64,000 nt of DNA from Chenggangzhangella methanolivorans (GTDB taxonomy: Bacteria; Pseudomonadota; Alphaproteobacteria; Rhizobiales; Methylopilaceae): positions 2,567,501-2,631,500 of the forward strand of contig NZ_CP081869.1 of NCBI RefSeq assembly GCF_019797865.1, in the 5' to 3' direction. A program made the translations under genes and the position numbers. The notes under the pieces are model-generated. The model was not told the DNA's origin and made no database searches. It saw only the letters and a program-made list of their open reading frames with translations. Every line of letters begins with the position of its first letter. Position 1 is the stretch's first letter. Below are positions 1 to 6,701 of this stretch, piece after piece.

Positions 1-530
1 CTTCTGGACAGTACCGTCCCATGGAAGCCGAAGGGGACTACGCCAAGGGCCTATCTCTTTGGCAGCACAAGATCATTCAGGAGGAGGCTCGTCGACGAGA
101 GCGCGATCCGCGATCTCTCTCTGAACTCATGAGCGTCCGCTACGAACTCATGATGGAGGTCCACGAATCGATCCGCACAGGGATGGCCAAATCATTCCAC
201 GCGCGACTTCGCGGTATCGGATCACAGAGGCCCGCGCCCAGTTCGCTGCCGATCATTGTTGTCCCTCATTCTGGCGCTGCAGAAGAGCCCGTGAGCTCGA
301 TCCGAGCCGTGACCGCGGCCGACATGATCGAGACGCCGCCGCCGCCCGCAGAAGGTGCCGCCAAGGACCCTAAGCTTCCGAGAAAAAGCAGGCGGAAGCG
401 GGATGAATACAACCTCGAGCCTTTCCCGACGAGCGCGAATTACGCGCCGCCGTCACCTCCGCCAAACCGCGAAGAGGATGAACAGCTCGAGTCATTTCCT
501 ACAAGTTCATGGGGTAACGCTGATGCTTAA
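1..530 (+). CDS. Tn7/Tn5053-like transposase, C-terminal part (TniA/TnsB family)
   Basis: The reading frame is open from the window edge, so this is only the last ~176 residues of a DDE transposase whose catalytic core lies upstream. The visible part is Arg/Glu-rich (EEARRRERDP, then a helical stretch ending near residue 60) followed by a Pro-rich, probably disordered tail, as in TniA/TnsB C-termini that contact the AAA+ regulator. The assignment rests mainly on context: the stop overlaps the ATG of a TniB-like ATPase by 8 nt and a TniQ gene follows. Inference from synteny, not from the catalytic domain. Confidence 0.7.
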   Translation, partial: SGQYRPMEAEGDYAKGLSLWQHKIIQEEARRRERDPRSLSELMSVRYELMMEVHESIRTGMAKSFHARLRGIGSQRPAPSSLPIIVVPHSGAAEEPVSSIRAVTAADMIETPPPPAEGAAKDPKLPRKSRRKRDEYNLEPFPTSANYAPPSPPPNREEDEQLESFPTSSWGNADA

Positions 531-1522
531 AGTTGCAGAACAGATCGTGCATCCGGAGTTCCGCGCACTTAGCGATCGCTTTGCCGAACGCATCAATGCG
601 ATCAAGGGGATTCGTATCCGGAATGACCGAACGCTGGAGCTCATTCAGCGCCTTCACCTCTTCAAAGATACAGCGTCGGGCACCGGCGACAGCGCAGGCG
701 GCGCACTCACGGCTCCGACCAGAGCCGGAAAGACCACTGTTATCCAAGAGTTTCTGGCCGATTTCCCTCCAGTCAGGCTTGGTGAGACCGACTGTAGCCC
801 TGTGATATATTGCGAAATGCCAAGTAATGCGAACACCGTCCCTTGGCGCCAAGCTTTTGTCGGCTCTCGGAGATATCGATCCCGAACGAGGAACCGCTGC
901 ATTTAAGCAAAGGCGCGTAATTGAGGCCGTGCGTGAGCGAAAAACGAAGCTTCTGATCATTGATGAGGTGCAGCGGCTGGTTGCCAAAGACCAGGGAAAA
1001 GTTGCTCACGCGGTCGCTGATTGGATTCAGGAGCTAATGAACGAGATTAGCCGCTCCTGCGGCATCATACTTGTCGGCACGACCAGGGCTCGCCGCATCT
1101 TTATCCGTAACGGCCATCTTATTGGCCGCAACGTACCTGCGCTGGAGATGAAACCCTACGCCACGAGACATGATGATCCGAGCGACTGGAAGCTTTATCG
1201 ATCGTATCTGATGACGTTCGACAGTGAGCTTCAGAGACTGGGCGGCTTCCAGAAATCACATTTGCATGAAGAAGATATGGCGAGCCGAATTCATGCGGCT
1301 GCACGCGGCTACCCTGGTGCGACTGCTCGTCTGATACACATCACTTCAGAAGCTGCTATGAGACTTGGCGATCAGCCAACGTTATCGCGTGAATTATTCG
1401 CCCATTGTTTTGATGAAATGTGGAAGTTTTCTGATGCCAAAGTCGTGAACCCGTTTCTGACGCCAAAACCTCCGGCTGTAGAACTCGTTTGGACGAAGGA
1501 CTGGGAGACGTCCTTTGACTGA
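523..1522 (+). pseudogene. tniB: TniB/TnsC-like AAA+ transposition regulator, frameshifted
   Basis: It starts at ATG 523, overlapping the transposase stop. The Walker A motif (APTRAGKTT) is in the first frame and Walker B (LLIIDEVQRL) in the second; the protein passes from frame 1 to frame 2 at about 838-848 (NANTVP, then LGAKLLSALG). Removing one C from the CCC there restores one frame of about 332 aa, normal for TniB. TniB-type ATPases bind DNA and link the transposase to the target selector. The break is a real mutation, a sequencing error, or less likely a programmed +1 shift. The stop overlaps the TTG start of tniQ. Confidence 0.8.
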
Positions 1523-3731
1523 TACGGCGTCTCCACGAGTTCCGGTGCCTGGCGATGCACTTCAGAGAGGTTTCGATTTCGTCATCGGCGAACGCACCGT
1601 ACAAAACCGCGTCACGCCATATTACGACGAAACCTTGCTTAGCATTTTGACGCGCATCGTCGGTCGCACTGGCCACTCCTACCTGGTGGCTTTGTGTCCG
1701 AAACTCGGAATGACGAGGGCTGAAGTCCACAGAGCTCCTTGGCTTGGCGGTCACACTTCCAGGATCGCTGAAGTCTGTGGCTTTCCGGAGGACGAGGTAA
1801 CGCGCCGAATGTATGGCTTCGGAGGATCGAAGCTCGGCCTTCAGCATGCGATGTTCAGTGGCGGCCCTATCGGGCAATCGTATGTCTCAACGAAACGACG
1901 GGCAGTCTCTCCAGCTTCTCTCAGGATCGCTCCCTATCACCGAATGGCGTGGGATCTGGTTCAGCTGGGCTTTTGCCCTGAATCGAACGAGCGACTCATC
2001 GATCGATGCCCGCTATGCAGCAAGGAGCTCACTTGGCTCGGTACCTCCGTTTGCCACTGCCATGCTTGCCGTTTCGATCTCCGGAAGCACGTGGAAAGCG
2101 GCGGTGACGTGAAACCGCCGATGTATCTCTCTAAGCTGGCAAACGCGCTTTCCCCCTTCCCTTCCTTACGAGCAGAGACCGTCGCCCAACTCCCTAGCGA
2201 TCTTCGTTCGCTCACCGGCGGGGAGCTACTCCAATCGGCCATACTCATCGGTCTTGCTACTCGTCGCCTGCTCGATCCGAAGGCGCCAAGCATGCGACGG
2301 AGTATGGGTAAAGGATCATCCAGAGCCGAGTCGGCTGAGATTCTTGGATATGGCTCACAAGTATTATTTGATATGAGAGAATACTTCTCCGATATTTTGA
2401 CTGAAACTCGGAATATTGGAGGAGGCAGCAAGAGCAACTCGCCCATTCGGAACGAACTAGGAGATCTATATGACCTGATCGACCCCAGCGTCGTGGGTCA
2501 AGCTATTTCAGACGTATTTAGCGCACGCATCAAAGATCACTATCAAAAATCCTATTCTCCTTTCGACAAAACTACATCATCGACGGTTCTATTGAAGTGG
2601 TGCGATCAGGTCATGAGCTATGACGAAGTCATTGCGAGCGTCACCACAAAGCAATTCCACGCTGAGAAAATGCGATCGCTTCGCACCCTTAAAGTCGGTC
2701 GCGGCGCAAAATCGCTAGCCTACCGGCGTGATAAGGTCAGAGAACTAATTATCGATTTGGAGAACTCTACACTTCAGACGGTTCTAAAGAAAAAGTACGG
2801 AATGCCCAATGTAATCCTGGATGGCTTGATCCAAAAAAAGGTCATCAAGCGCTCTCCCTCGCTCGTGGAGGAAATCCTTGGCCCAGGAAGGCTAGACGAA
2901 GCGGATCTCAGGCAATGGGTTCGGTCGATCGAGGCGAAGCTCGAGGAGCCCCGAGACTCGGAACCGGTCAGGCTCAAGGAGGCAATCCGGCATCTCGGGA
3001 CTGGTGACGCCGCCTGGCGTCGGGTCATAGATCTCATTCAAACGGGGCAAGTGCCGCTTGTTGGGGTGCGCGAAGACGTAACGGCTTTGACGGTTCGGTG
3101 GTCCCTATGCCGACGCAGCCTTGCTTCACACCTACCTGTCCCGACGGCAAAATCCGGCACCGCGTTGACCGTGATGCTCGCCCATGTTGGGCTGCGGGCA
3201 CGCAAAGCTGCCGAACTCGGAAGACTACAGGTCATCCGGACAGCTCCCTGTCCCAAAAACAGCCGCGTGTCCACGGTCGATCAAGCTGAACTGGATCGGT
3301 TCAGGAGCAGCTTCACGACGCCAGTAGCCTTAGCGAGCGAGTGGGGCGTGCCGGTCAAATTCGTGATTGCGTGGCTACGCGAGGCGAACGTCGAGGTCAT
3401 TGGAAGCGGCCGCCCTAACGTCTATCGTCTTGATGACGTCAAACGACTTTTGGCTTCCGGCAAAGAACAATTTGTTCGCTTCAATCAACATTCGGAAGAT
3501 CGTACTGTCTTTCTGCTACAATATCTTAGAATTCCGATCGGGCTCGAAATTAATAACATCAAGACACGCATTAGCACGGTGCAAAAATCGAAACAAAAAT
3601 CCTTGATAATGTTAATAAAGATTATTTCTGGCTTCAAACTTTCTGACATCATAAAAGATCACGGAACCTCTTGTGTCTTATACTTTCTCTTCTATCCGCA
3701 GGCGTGGAATCGAAAGGCATCTTATACGTAA
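1515..3731 (+). CDS. tniQ: TniQ/TnsD-like target-selection protein
   Basis: 738 aa from a TTG start that overlaps the tniB stop (translational coupling). The N-terminal ~190 residues are a TniQ domain with the usual PYYDETLLS start and a zinc-ribbon (CPLC at about 165, then CHCHAC at about 180). It is much longer than Tn5053 TniQ (~400 aa) and closer in size to TnsD-type selectors that read a fixed attachment site, with probable HTH regions at about 480-660. The last ~80 residues are AT-rich, of unlike codon use, and overlap the next gene, so the natural stop may have been lost. Family assignment is firm; the target site is unknown. Confidence 0.85.
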   Translation: MTDTASPRVPVPGDALQRGFDFVIGERTVQNRVTPYYDETLLSILTRIVGRTGHSYLVALCPKLGMTRAEVHRAPWLGGHTSRIAEVCGFPEDEVTRRMYGFGGSKLGLQHAMFSGGPIGQSYVSTKRRAVSPASLRIAPYHRMAWDLVQLGFCPESNERLIDRCPLCSKELTWLGTSVCHCHACRFDLRKHVESGGDVKPPMYLSKLANALSPFPSLRAETVAQLPSDLRSLTGGELLQSAILIGLATRRLLDPKAPSMRRSMGKGSSRAESAEILGYGSQVLFDMREYFSDILTETRNIGGGSKSNSPIRNELGDLYDLIDPSVVGQAISDVFSARIKDHYQKSYSPFDKTTSSTVLLKWCDQVMSYDEVIASVTTKQFHAEKMRSLRTLKVGRGAKSLAYRRDKVRELIIDLENSTLQTVLKKKYGMPNVILDGLIQKKVIKRSPSLVEEILGPGRLDEADLRQWVRSIEAKLEEPRDSEPVRLKEAIRHLGTGDAAWRRVIDLIQTGQVPLVGVREDVTALTVRWSLCRRSLASHLPVPTAKSGTALTVMLAHVGLRARKAAELGRLQVIRTAPCPKNSRVSTVDQAELDRFRSSFTTPVALASEWGVPVKFVIAWLREANVEVIGSGRPNVYRLDDVKRLLASGKEQFVRFNQHSEDRTVFLLQYLRIPIGLEINNIKTRISTVQKSKQKSLIMLIKIISGFKLSDIIKDHGTSCVLYFLFYPQAWNRKASYT

Positions 3732-4416
3732 ACAGAGAAATCAATATATTCTGTCATCCAAACAGAGAGCGGATCTTATTTCAAAAGCGCAGGAATTTAT
3801 TGCTCGCAATAAAGCGGGTGAGCGCTTTAGTCTGTTTGATGTAAGACAATTTATCATAGATGAGTTTTCAATTGAATATAGCGTGACGAATATCTCGACC
3901 TATCTACGGAGATCTGGGGTCAAATGGCCGTCTGTTAATGAAGGGCCGAGGTCATTAGATGGATTGCAGCTCAAAAGGTACGCGCAGTTCAGTAACGACG
4001 TGGCTACTCGTATCAGAAATGGAGAGCGGGGCCTGACGCGTAACACTGTTAAGGACTGGGTACTCTCAGAATTTGGGGTAACCATATCCGAGAACGCAGT
4101 TAGTAAATACAATAAGGAATGTGGAGTCCTTTGGCCTGAAATGACGGGCAGGAAAATTGCGCGAAAGACCGGCAGACCGGAAAAATATAAGGGTCAGCAG
4201 AAATTTAGTGCTGATCAGTGGGAAGCATATAAATCGTTTTCGCGCCAATCTGCCGCCGCCATATTAAGCGGCGATCGGTCCATTTCGAAAACTACGATTC
4301 AGCGCTGGGTGAAGTCAGAGCTCGGGATTGATATTTCGTTAGGATCGGTCAAAGCCTACAATAAAATTGCGGGCGTTGAGTGGCCACGCGGTTCGTTAAA
4401 ATTTGCTTCAAATTAA
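3673..4416 (+). CDS. Protein of three tandem HTH-like repeats, Tn7-like element accessory gene
   Basis: 247 aa from a GTG start, overlapping the end of tniQ. It contains three copies of a ~58-residue unit (about 29-86, 98-155 and 180-238). Each has a basic amphipathic stretch, a [FLW]-x-[EF]FG[VI]xIS core, a predicted recognition-like helix and the ending GV[KLE]WP. The pattern resembles three winged-helix/HTH modules joined by basic linkers (GRKIARKTGRPEKYKG), so sequence-specific DNA binding is likely. I do not recognise a named family. Its place directly after tniQ and directly before a cluster of ~16-bp repeats suggests a target-selection, end-binding or regulatory role. Base composition is more AT-rich than the rest of the window. 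Confidence 0.7.
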   Translation: MSYTFSSIRRRGIERHLIRKQRNQYILSSKQRADLISKAQEFIARNKAGERFSLFDVRQFIIDEFSIEYSVTNISTYLRRSGVKWPSVNEGPRSLDGLQLKRYAQFSNDVATRIRNGERGLTRNTVKDWVLSEFGVTISENAVSKYNKECGVLWPEMTGRKIARKTGRPEKYKGQQKFSADQWEAYKSFSRQSAAAILSGDRSISKTTIQRWVKSELGIDISLGSVKAYNKIAGVEWPRGSLKFASN

Positions 4417-4470: not shown

Positions 4471-4658
4471 GACTCATTTTATCTGCGTTAGACTCATTAT
4501 TTCTGACGCATGACACCCGCTCAGTGTCGAATTCCAAAATAAGCGAGTCTGTCTGATCATCTAACTCATTGAATTATCAGGCACTCGGCGCCCAGAATAA
4601 TCGAGTCCAGTTCCTCAATTATTGAGTCTAGATGACGCTATTTCGCAAAGCCGAGTCT
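4471..4658. repeat. Cluster of seven transposon-end-type repeats
   Basis: Seven copies of a motif close to CAGAATAANCGAGTCT: inverted at 4471-4485, 4491-4505 and 4563-4580; direct at 4534-4550, 4591-4608, 4613-4629 and 4645-4658. The invariant core is GAGTC. Spacing and number resemble the TnsB-binding-site arrays at Tn7-family ends. The mixed orientation is odd for a single end and may mean an operator array for the preceding gene or remains of two ends. Confidence 0.65.
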
Positions 4659-5297
4659 AAGGCCCGAATTTTTGTTCAATTTTGAGGACTTTTGATCGAA
4701 CCGTACTGCAGGACGGAAACCCCGTGTGACGGGGCTGCGTCGCTGCGATGAACCAGGGCGCTGAGGTATCGCATCCGCAAATGGCCCTCGATTAGGAAGT
4801 GGCGGACGTCGGAATTTGGGTTCTGAGCATCGACCAAGCCGTGGGCGTGTGGAGAAGCAAGACAGGGATATCCCACGCGTTCATCGGCCTGGCGGTCGGA
4901 ACGTCCGGATACATATTGAAGACCCGATGGTGCTCTGGATTGAACTCCCAGAATGAGCAGTGAGCCCTAGGGAGTTCATCGCTCGTCCGCGTCTCCTCCG
5001 TCCGAATCAGACCGGTTAAGGGGAGCGAGCAGTAAGGCGAGAGGTCCCGGTGCCGGTATACTCGGCGGCCGGCGATAAGCGGGTGACGATGGCCGACTCA
5101 ATCAAGATAGCGGTCGTACCAGCTCTCGGCCGGCTCCTTTTCGTATGTGCCCTCACCCCGTGGCCGAAGACCTTTTGGCCACGCGAGACCCTTGTCCCGC
5201 CAGATTTAAAGCAGGTACCCGAGCCAAAGCAATTCAGGCTATTTTCAAAATAACCGAGATTTACCGCACTTAAAATATTGATTATGATAGATTTAAT
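4659..5297. other. Gene-poor segment between the two repeat clusters
   Basis: No gene is recognised. Two short open frames exist, 4676-4876 on - (66 aa, HFLIEGHLRMRYLS) and 5050-5253 on + (67 aa), both without a convincing ribosome site or family. Base composition changes from AT-rich to mixed, so this may be a remnant of transposon cargo. Confidence 0.4.
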
Positions 5298-5357
5298 CAG
5301 AATACGCGAGTCTGTAGATCCATATTAAACGAGTCTTGTTTCAGAATTAGTCAGTCC
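5298..5357 (+). repeat. Second cluster of end-type repeats, probable transposon end
   Basis: Three more copies of the same motif, all in one orientation (cores at 5298-5313, 5321-5336 and 5342-5357). They stop abruptly where GC-rich chromosomal sequence begins. The compact, same-direction array marks the likely outer end of the Tn7-like element. The exact terminus and target duplication cannot be fixed because the other end is outside the window. Confidence 0.6.
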
Positions 5358-5755
5358 CAAGGCGGGCTTGGCGGGACGGGCGCCTTAATCCTGTTCCCGC
5401 GCCGCTCGCGCGCTTGGCCTTGGCGGAAGCTGGACGAGGCTTTTGGCGCTTTCTCGCGCCAGGAGGCTCCGCACGAGGCCAGCTTCTCCCATGCGTCTCT
5501 CAGGCTGCCCGGCCACTGGCGAGCCAGCGCTTCGATCAGGGCGCCAGCTTGCTGGACGTTCTTTCGTAACCTCGCCGCGCTGCGGGCGTCTGCGTGTCGC
5601 CGAATCTGGGCAACCATGAGCTTATGGAGGACGAACCGTGTCGGCTCAGGCCCATTGATCGGTACGCTGGTTCCACAGGAGTCTTCGGCGAAAGCGTCGG
5701 TCGTCTGGATCGAATCCCTCTCGTCACCCATCTTCCTTCTGACCGGAGGAGCCAT
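5351..5755 (-). pseudogene. GSU2403-family nucleotidyltransferase-fold gene, C-terminal remnant
   Basis: The minus-strand frame contains the characteristic C-terminal block of this family: VPINGPEPTRFVLHKLMVAQ, then an Ala/Arg-rich helix with QQAGALIEALARQWPGSLRDAW and a terminal WRE. Family members are about 300-350 aa with the nucleotidyltransferase core upstream; here only ~110 residues remain and the 5' part has been replaced by the divergent TIR gene. Its 3' end coincides with the transposon end repeats. Family recognised from memory of its conserved C-terminus; no function is claimed. Confidence 0.55.
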
Positions 5756-6701
5756 GGCGACCGTATTCTTCTCTTACTCTCATAAGGATGAGGAGCTTCG
5801 CGACCGGCTCGAGGTCGCGCTTTCTGCGATGAAGCGGCAAGGGTTGATCGATGCCTGGCACGATCGGCGGCTGTCGGTCGGGGATGACTTCGACAAGGGA
5901 GTCCGATCAGAACTCGAGCGCGCCGATGTAATCCTCTTGCTGGTTTCTCCCGATTTCATCGCGTCCGACTACTGCCACGACGTCGAGATGGTCCGGGCGC
6001 TTGAGCGCCACAAGCGTGGCGAGGCGCGCGTCATCCCCGTGATACTGCGCGCGTGCGACTGGAAGCAGACCGCCTTCAAGAAGCTGCTCGCGGCACCGAC
6101 TGATGGAAAGCCAATCAGGAGTTGGCCCGACCTCGACGAGGCCTTCCTCGACGTTGTCCAAAAGATCCGTCAAACGCTGAGCGTCCCGGTGGCAAGCACC
6201 TCGAAGCCAGATGTCCTCAAAGCTGGGGCGGACACGGCTCCGTCCAACGCGGGACTACGGTCTAGCAACCTTAGGCTTCGCAAGAATTTCACCGACGTCG
6301 ACCGCGACCGCTTCCTCGACGAGGCTTTTGACTACATCGGTCGGTTCTTCGAGGGGTCGCTTGCGGAGCTGGAGAAGCGCAATGGCGGTATCGAGACCAA
6401 CTTCCGGCGCGTCGACGCCAACCGCTTCACCGCAGTCATCTACGAGGACGGCAATGCGGTTGCGCGCTGCGCGGTCTTCATGGACGGCTCCATGGGCCGT
6501 GGGATTTCCTACTCATCGACGGACAGCATGATTGGAAACGGCTTCAACGAGAACCTACGCGTGGAGGCCGACGAGCAGGGCATGTTCCTGAAGTCGATGG
6601 GCATGGCCATGACAGGTTCAGGTCGCGAGCAGAAGCTAACATATGAGGGCGGTGCCGAACTCTATTGGGACATGCTCATCGGACCGTTGCGGACGCGGTA
6701 G
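5754..6701 (+). CDS. TIR-domain protein
   Basis: 315 aa; ATG 5754 is preceded by GGAGGA at good spacing. Residues 1-140 form a bacterial TIR domain: FFSYSHKDEELRDRLE opening, the BB-loop region, LLLVSPDFIASDYC, and the Glu expected to be catalytic at E78 (YCHDVEM). This layout is typical of TIR proteins with NADase activity. Residues ~185-310 form a second alpha/beta-looking domain with no recognised motif and no membrane segment; it may sense the trigger. Stand-alone TIR effectors often act in anti-phage defence or abortive infection, and the position beside a mobile-element end fits. The defence role is inference. Confidence 0.8.
   Translation: MATVFFSYSHKDEELRDRLEVALSAMKRQGLIDAWHDRRLSVGDDFDKGVRSELERADVILLLVSPDFIASDYCHDVEMVRALERHKRGEARVIPVILRACDWKQTAFKKLLAAPTDGKPIRSWPDLDEAFLDVVQKIRQTLSVPVASTSKPDVLKAGADTAPSNAGLRSSNLRLRKNFTDVDRDRFLDEAFDYIGRFFEGSLAELEKRNGGIETNFRRVDANRFTAVIYEDGNAVARCAVFMDGSMGRGISYSSTDSMIGNGFNENLRVEADEQGMFLKSMGMAMTGSGREQKLTYEGGAELYWDMLIGPLRTR

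Follow-up and report, generated by a model that had tools for sequence, protein, structure and literature searches.

The window analysed here, 64,000 nucleotides of Chenggangzhangella methanolivorans (positions 2,567,501 to 2,631,500 of contig NZ_CP081869.1), raises the question of what is encoded directly after tniQ, where a second open reading frame (ORF) starts before the first has ended. The original prediction saw in it the gene of an unrecognised, separate protein made of three tandem helix-turn-helix (HTH)-like repeats, overlapping tniQ and adjacent to an array of seven copies of a short motif, several of which the protein could read at once. The overlap was borne out (3673-4416 against 1515-3731), and so were the three repeats. 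As for the nature of the protein, the ORF at 3673-4416 is almost certainly the C-terminus of TniQ itself and not a gene of its own. The features on which the argument draws are collected in Table 1.

Table 1. Features of the window around the ORF at 3673-4416 (positions are those of the window)
Feature	Position	Strand	Remarks
tniA, 3' end (TnsB-like transposase)	1-530	+	In two frames, the split lying upstream of the window
tniB (TnsC-like ATPase)	524-1522	+	Split near 835-840; M. turkensis TniB residues 1-106 and 105-333 in two frames; PF05621 matches the second piece
tniQ, N-terminal and middle part	1515-3731	+	59% identical to M. turkensis TniQ residues 1-730; departs from the TniQ frame near 3670
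ORF of 247 aa	3673-4416	+	GTG start; overlaps the tniQ ORF at 1515-3731; frame-shifted C-terminal portion of TniQ
HTH unit 1, ORF residues 25-86	3745-3930	+	Unit HMM 85 bits; helices 29-47, 54-65, 71-80
HTH unit 2, ORF residues 93-155	3949-4137	+	Unit HMM 93 bits; helices 97-115, 123-134, 140-149
HTH unit 3, ORF residues 175-238	4195-4386	+	Unit HMM 91 bits; helices 180-198, 206-217, 223-232
Right end of element B	4471-4515	-	Two end-type repeats; terminus ...TGACA at 4515
gyrB-proximal target remnant	4516-4524	.	CCCGC (B duplication, 4516-4520) overlapping CTCAG (C duplication)
Left end of element C	4525-5357	+	Clusters at 4525-4658 and about 5245-5357; aligned with the M. jiangsuensis (G076) and M. 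turkensis (G034) left ends

The repeats were recovered by a shuffle test, by a Pfam match and as predicted helices. Their expected endings are present (GVKWP, GVLWP and GVEWP at residues 82, 151 and 234), although the units measure 62-64 residues instead of about 58. The pairwise local scores between units exceeded those of all 1000 shuffles in each case (z about 11, 8 and 23), and Pfam HTH_33 matches the ORF at E 1.9e-8 (34.2 bits for a cut-off of 25). A unit HMM finds exactly three copies in the ORF, spanning residues 25-86, 94-155 and 176-238; since it was built from ten copies, including all three of this ORF, independent support for the units comes from the shuffle test and the HTH_33 match. 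In the AlphaFold2 model, obtained from a three-row alignment (mean pLDDT 73.4, pTM 0.35), every unit has a helix of 19 residues and, after it, two shorter ones spaced as in an HTH. This is the HTH-like fold of three helices that had been expected; as the model has no strands in any unit, the term 'winged' is unsupported, despite the Pfam name. Such predicted modules fit the likely DNA-binding role that had been proposed for them. The structure model of full-length TniQ (mean pLDDT 50.6) was too poor for use. Neither the ORF nor the unit profile matched any solved structure significantly by sequence, and Foldseek returned no match against the PDB at E 0.001 or better. VIA-align did list HTH domains (sigma54, TnsB 7pik, Pax5, Tc3) with Z up to 6.4, which the tool rates as middling and which ranked below one Z 6.5 row for another protein with an rmsd of 10.7. 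A search of PHROGs gave weak matches only.

The identity of the ORF follows from comparison with M. turkensis (G034, VKM B-2748), rated as belonging to the same genus as the genome of the window (G000), i.e. Methylopila. There, the homologue is a single open frame of 988 aa corresponding to an uninterrupted TniQ of 970 aa, and the sequence taken for a separate protein is encoded inside it. Residues 722-958 of this TniQ align by tblastn with the ORF at 54-55% identity, in a frame other than that of the preceding part; because the matches run from 1 to 730 and then from 722 to 958, no stretch of TniQ is missing between the two ORFs of the window. The TniQ proteins of M. jiangsuensis (G076) and of a further element of the window's own genome, called C below, each carry one such unit at their C-terminus, in a single frame. 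The proposed co-occurrence with long TniQ proteins also held, as all homologues of at least 86 bits in the genomes sampled lie in TniQ of Tn7-like elements, the other matches of the unit profile being few and scoring 23-25 bits. An N-terminal TniQ domain, the first mark of a TnsD-like protein, is indicated by Pfam PF06527, which the C-type TniQ P0004 matches above the cut-off of 27 bits (37.1) and P0002 and P0003 below it (21.9 and 19.8), and by the match of a profile of these TniQs to the TniQ chain 7u5d at 1.2e-9; on the tniQ of the window PF06527 is weak (E 2.9e-4) and under the cut-off. The second mark, a long C-terminal region with several HTH domains, is found here as the three predicted units.

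What, then, is the array? A cluster of short repeats does exist at 4471-4658, yet it is not one array: up to 4515 it belongs to the right end of one transposon, element B, and from 4525 on to the left end of a second, element C. Around 4489-4550 the right end ...TAGACTCATTATTTCTGACGCATGACA is followed by CCCGCTCAG and then by the left end TGTCGAATTCCAAAATAAGCGAGTC... The left end of C shows a mean column identity of 81% with those of M. jiangsuensis and M. turkensis, including the second cluster about 700 bp inside. It is to repeats of this sort, at transposon ends, that transposases of TnsB type bind. The idea that the protein reads several units of the array is not supported, and the position of the elements at gyrB suggests this gene as the target instead.

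Matching 5-bp duplications flank the ends of B and C and thereby define their extents. Element B covers about 97 kb (contig 2475003-2572015), with CCCGC directly before its left end at 2475003 as well as at 4516-4520 of the window; element C covers about 122 kb (contig 2572025-2694484), with CTCAG also after its right end at 2694484. A third element, A, extends from about 2430055 to 2474993 between CAGGC and CCGGC, which differ at one of five bases. The three lie in the same orientation beside gyrB and occupy together about 264 kb (contig 2430055-2694484), within which the window falls. It seems that each newcomer went in between gyrB and its predecessor, and the nesting of the duplications suggests that A arrived first, then B, then C. 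Over the five elements of three genomes, the duplication is exact in four (CCCGC for B, CTCAG for C, GTCGG in M. turkensis, GTGAT in M. jiangsuensis) and conserved at four of five bases in A.

In their architecture, these are Tn7-like elements. Their termini are TGT...ACA with multiple short repeats at both ends; with the pattern used, no more than one or two copies are counted at some right ends (M. turkensis and C). Clusters of at least three end repeats within 200 bp occur at three places in a 390.9-kb stretch of the window's genome, all at element ends; near-identical positions were counted once, and the right ends of C and M. turkensis have too few copies to be listed. A cruder count over 290.9 kb adds the second cluster of the C left end and, beyond the elements, a single place at 2703421-2703449. 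TnsA, a DDE transposase (TnsB/TniA), TnsC/TniB and TniQ are encoded in one operon in M. turkensis (matches to TnsA PF08722, PF09299 with rve under the cut-off, PF05621, and PF06527 under the cut-off), and tblastn finds the same order in B.

Several other genes were noticed along the way. Element B encodes, upstream of tnsA, an AAA+ protein that matches Peptidase_M41 (FtsH-like; L005:6443-8401, + strand), and what looks by eye like its counterpart stands at the same place in M. jiangsuensis (L036:8117-10387, - strand); these transposons may share it as an accessory gene. A TIR-domain protein (window 5616-6701, + strand; PF13676, E 1.6e-16), encoded next to the left end of C on its inner side, may be the product of a defence gene. 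The left ends of M. jiangsuensis and M. turkensis contain, between their two clusters, a conserved ORF of about 190 aa starting with MRW (L055:1988-2557 and L043:18283-18870, both on the + strand), for which Pfam gave no match; in the window, the DNA at about 4690-5226 (- strand) aligns with it, yet no ORF of at least 80 aa is listed there.

The reason why TniQ changes frame in element B is a matter apart. Quite probably it is an indel of the assembly rather than decay, and an indel-rich assembly would be the simplest, and a likely, cause of the splits as a whole. This view is based on the following observations. With M. turkensis proteins as tblastn queries, tniA, tniB and tniQ of element B are each found split between frames; in the query genome itself the four operon genes are in single frames, as they are in M. 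jiangsuensis for the matched parts. Also, 12 of the 17 ACR_tran (AcrB-type) genes of the window's genome are in pieces and 5 are whole, compared with none split among 31 above the cut-off in relatives (11 in G034, 10 in G076 and 10 in G235); for this count 54 matches were grouped by place, one weak match under the cut-off being excluded in each of the four genomes. The mean coding-like ORF is 303 aa long in this genome and 399 aa in M. turkensis, on eight 20-kb tiles each that are not homologous. The assembly consists of one 5.54-Mb contig with a completeness rating of 88%. Given how often the ACR_tran genes are broken across the genome, other 'split' or 'overlapping' genes of the window might also reflect assembly indels.

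The main alternative, which concerns the cause of the split only, is that element B is older and decaying and that tniA, tniB and tniQ carry real frame shifts, its tniQ being then a genuine pseudogene. All three genes being split would agree with this, and so would the fact that tniA and tniQ of A are in more pieces than those of B, while in C, proximal to gyrB, tniB and tniQ are unbroken. Some weight is left to a real inactivating mutation in the copy of B, though we regard it as unlikely, by the position of A and B as the older, inner elements and by the unbroken frames of gyrB, dnaN and recF nearby. As 2 of the 12 split ACR_tran genes lie inside B and C, 10 of the 15 outside the elements are split too; moreover, the pieces are otherwise open, and all three units appear to be under constraint at the protein level, with a dN of 0.39-0.47 against M. 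turkensis (no dN/dS is given because dS is saturated). A small DNA-binding protein of its own, made by translational coupling to tniQ and binding the adjacent repeats, could be read from the ORF as sequenced, with its own GTG start, its overlap with tniQ and the repeat cluster downstream; it is made very improbable by the relatives, which carry the same sequence within TniQ in one frame, and by the repeats, which are the ends of two elements and are of the same type on elements whose TniQ has a single unit. Even less probable is programmed frameshifting that would yield TniQ in two forms, a short one and a long one with the HTH part: both A and B do shift frame between TniQ and the HTH part, but the direction and the place of the change differ between them, and M. 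turkensis, M. jiangsuensis and element C need none.

With the assembly indel retained as the preferred cause of the split, we may turn to the insertion site. The distance from the gyrB stop to the element end is 9 bp for A, 5 for B, 1 for C, 6 in M. turkensis and 1 in M. jiangsuensis, the value for A being that before insertion of B and C and the value for B that before insertion of C. That the gene is gyrB is indicated by the equivalog model TIGR01059, which is matched above its cut-off when two parE models are not passed, and by dnaN and recF beside it in M. turkensis. Among 13 Methylopila genomes an element is present at gyrB in three, and no such end in the other ten (one of which, G111, has a lone GAGTC). 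Very probably, therefore, these are Tn7-like transposons homing to gyrB. None of the texts consulted gives gyrB as an attachment site for Tn7-like elements: the name has no occurrence in the main texts of PMC11406308, PMC10293859 and PMC8649781, and in the part of PMC12452197 available it appears as a marker gene. As far as our literature search reached, the attachment site appears to be new, with no report found, and the kind of element is known.

The TniQ with its tail seems to be of narrow distribution. The protein encoded by the ORF (P0001) is found in 2 of 297 genomes of the order and the full TniQ in 2 of 385 genomes of the class, the second being a partial TniQ match; the unit profile is matched in 4 of the 385, the three others at 23-25 bits, two of which look by eye like IS630 transposases (the window's own genome is included in each of these counts). 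Of the 13 Methylopila genomes, none has the unit outside these TniQs, save for one match of 24.9 bits in G298. Relatives of TniA are more widespread (24 of 297 genomes of the order), with more than 50% identity only in three Methylopila and 25-32% in the 21 others. A pattern scan of contigs confirmed 2 of 27 stretches; as it used two peptide patterns only, the rarity is drawn mainly from the sampled searches. A plasmid origin of the ORF was discarded, none of 72,556 plasmid records matching it; the full M. turkensis TniQ gave five weak partial matches among the same records. Viral contigs yielded no relative of TniQ, 49 stretches fitting the pattern and none being confirmed by alignment to TniQ.

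TnsD tails with multiple HTH domains are already known, according to the available part of PMC10293859. With TnsD and the TnsD-like TniQ of Tn7 and CASTs described there, the present proteins share the TniQ domain, the long multi-HTH C-terminal region, the insertion at the 3' end of a conserved gene and the target duplications; they are set apart, as far as that description goes, by C-terminal HTHs that are homologous to each other and vary from one to three copies, and by their site, gyrB, in place of glmS, parE or a tRNA gene. The TnsD of some type I-F3 CASTs, which targets parE (available part of PMC11406308), likewise acts beside the gene of a type II topoisomerase B subunit, a likeness of site; the gene here is gyrB by NCBIfam. 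TnsF of Tn6022 is also a DNA-binding target selector beside tniQ, but, in the same partly available account (PMC10293859), it is a separate tyrosine-recombinase-like protein next to a short TniQ, whereas here the HTHs are part of TniQ. The units further resemble the HTH_33 of IS630 type, matching both Pfam HTH_33 and an NCBIfam IS630 model. An IS630 transposase was rejected: only the HTH part of that model is matched (33.1 bits for a cut-off of 100), and the Pfam scan of the ORF gave no DDE family.

How might the tail work? Taken jointly, the reading of the ORF as the C-terminal target-recognition region of a TnsD-like TniQ, split most likely by an assembly indel, in an element homing to the gyrB 3' end, is one that we hold to be moderately likely. 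Recruitment of the TniB ATPase and of the TniA/TnsA transposase, as known for TnsD of Tn7, would fall to the TniQ core, and the C-terminal HTH modules would contact DNA at the gyrB 3' end, a contact that would position the element just a few bp beyond the stop codon of gyrB. That the units themselves read gyrB seems fairly likely to us by analogy, since their place in TniQ fits the region of TnsD that recognises the attachment site, as C-terminal regions of TnsD are described in the available parts of PMC11406308 and PMC10293859. Against the same descriptions one has to set another possibility, which bears on the role only and which we find rather unlikely: the units would serve to bend DNA, to grip it non-specifically or to contact TniB/TnsC, and the middle region of TniQ would read gyrB. 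The middle of the C-type TniQ does have weak HTH-like Pfam matches. Besides, TniQ has two units in A, three in B and in M. turkensis, and one in C and in M. jiangsuensis; as elements with one, two or three units all sit at gyrB, insertion there does not require the extra units, and this constant location is equally compatible with recognition by the region before the units.

Coming back to units that would read gyrB, we note that they match best by position (46% between unit 2 of A and unit 2 of B, 52% between unit 3 of B and unit 3 of M. turkensis), which suggests growth at the C-terminal side. One may then speculate that the tail is an extensible reader whose duplicated modules set the seat of the protein on the gyrB end, one, two and three modules giving offsets of +1, +9 and +5/+6, and which would allow elements to pile up at a site occupied by a relative; we consider this a doubtful proposal. 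What has been gained is that a false 'new protein' is replaced by a clearly delimited group of Methylopila elements of Tn7-like type that home to gyrB. The gyrB site, together with a tail of countable homologous modules, would make the gain or change of a target of TnsD type testable, and the stacking of three elements next to a single gene is relevant to the way in which such transposons escape mutual exclusion.
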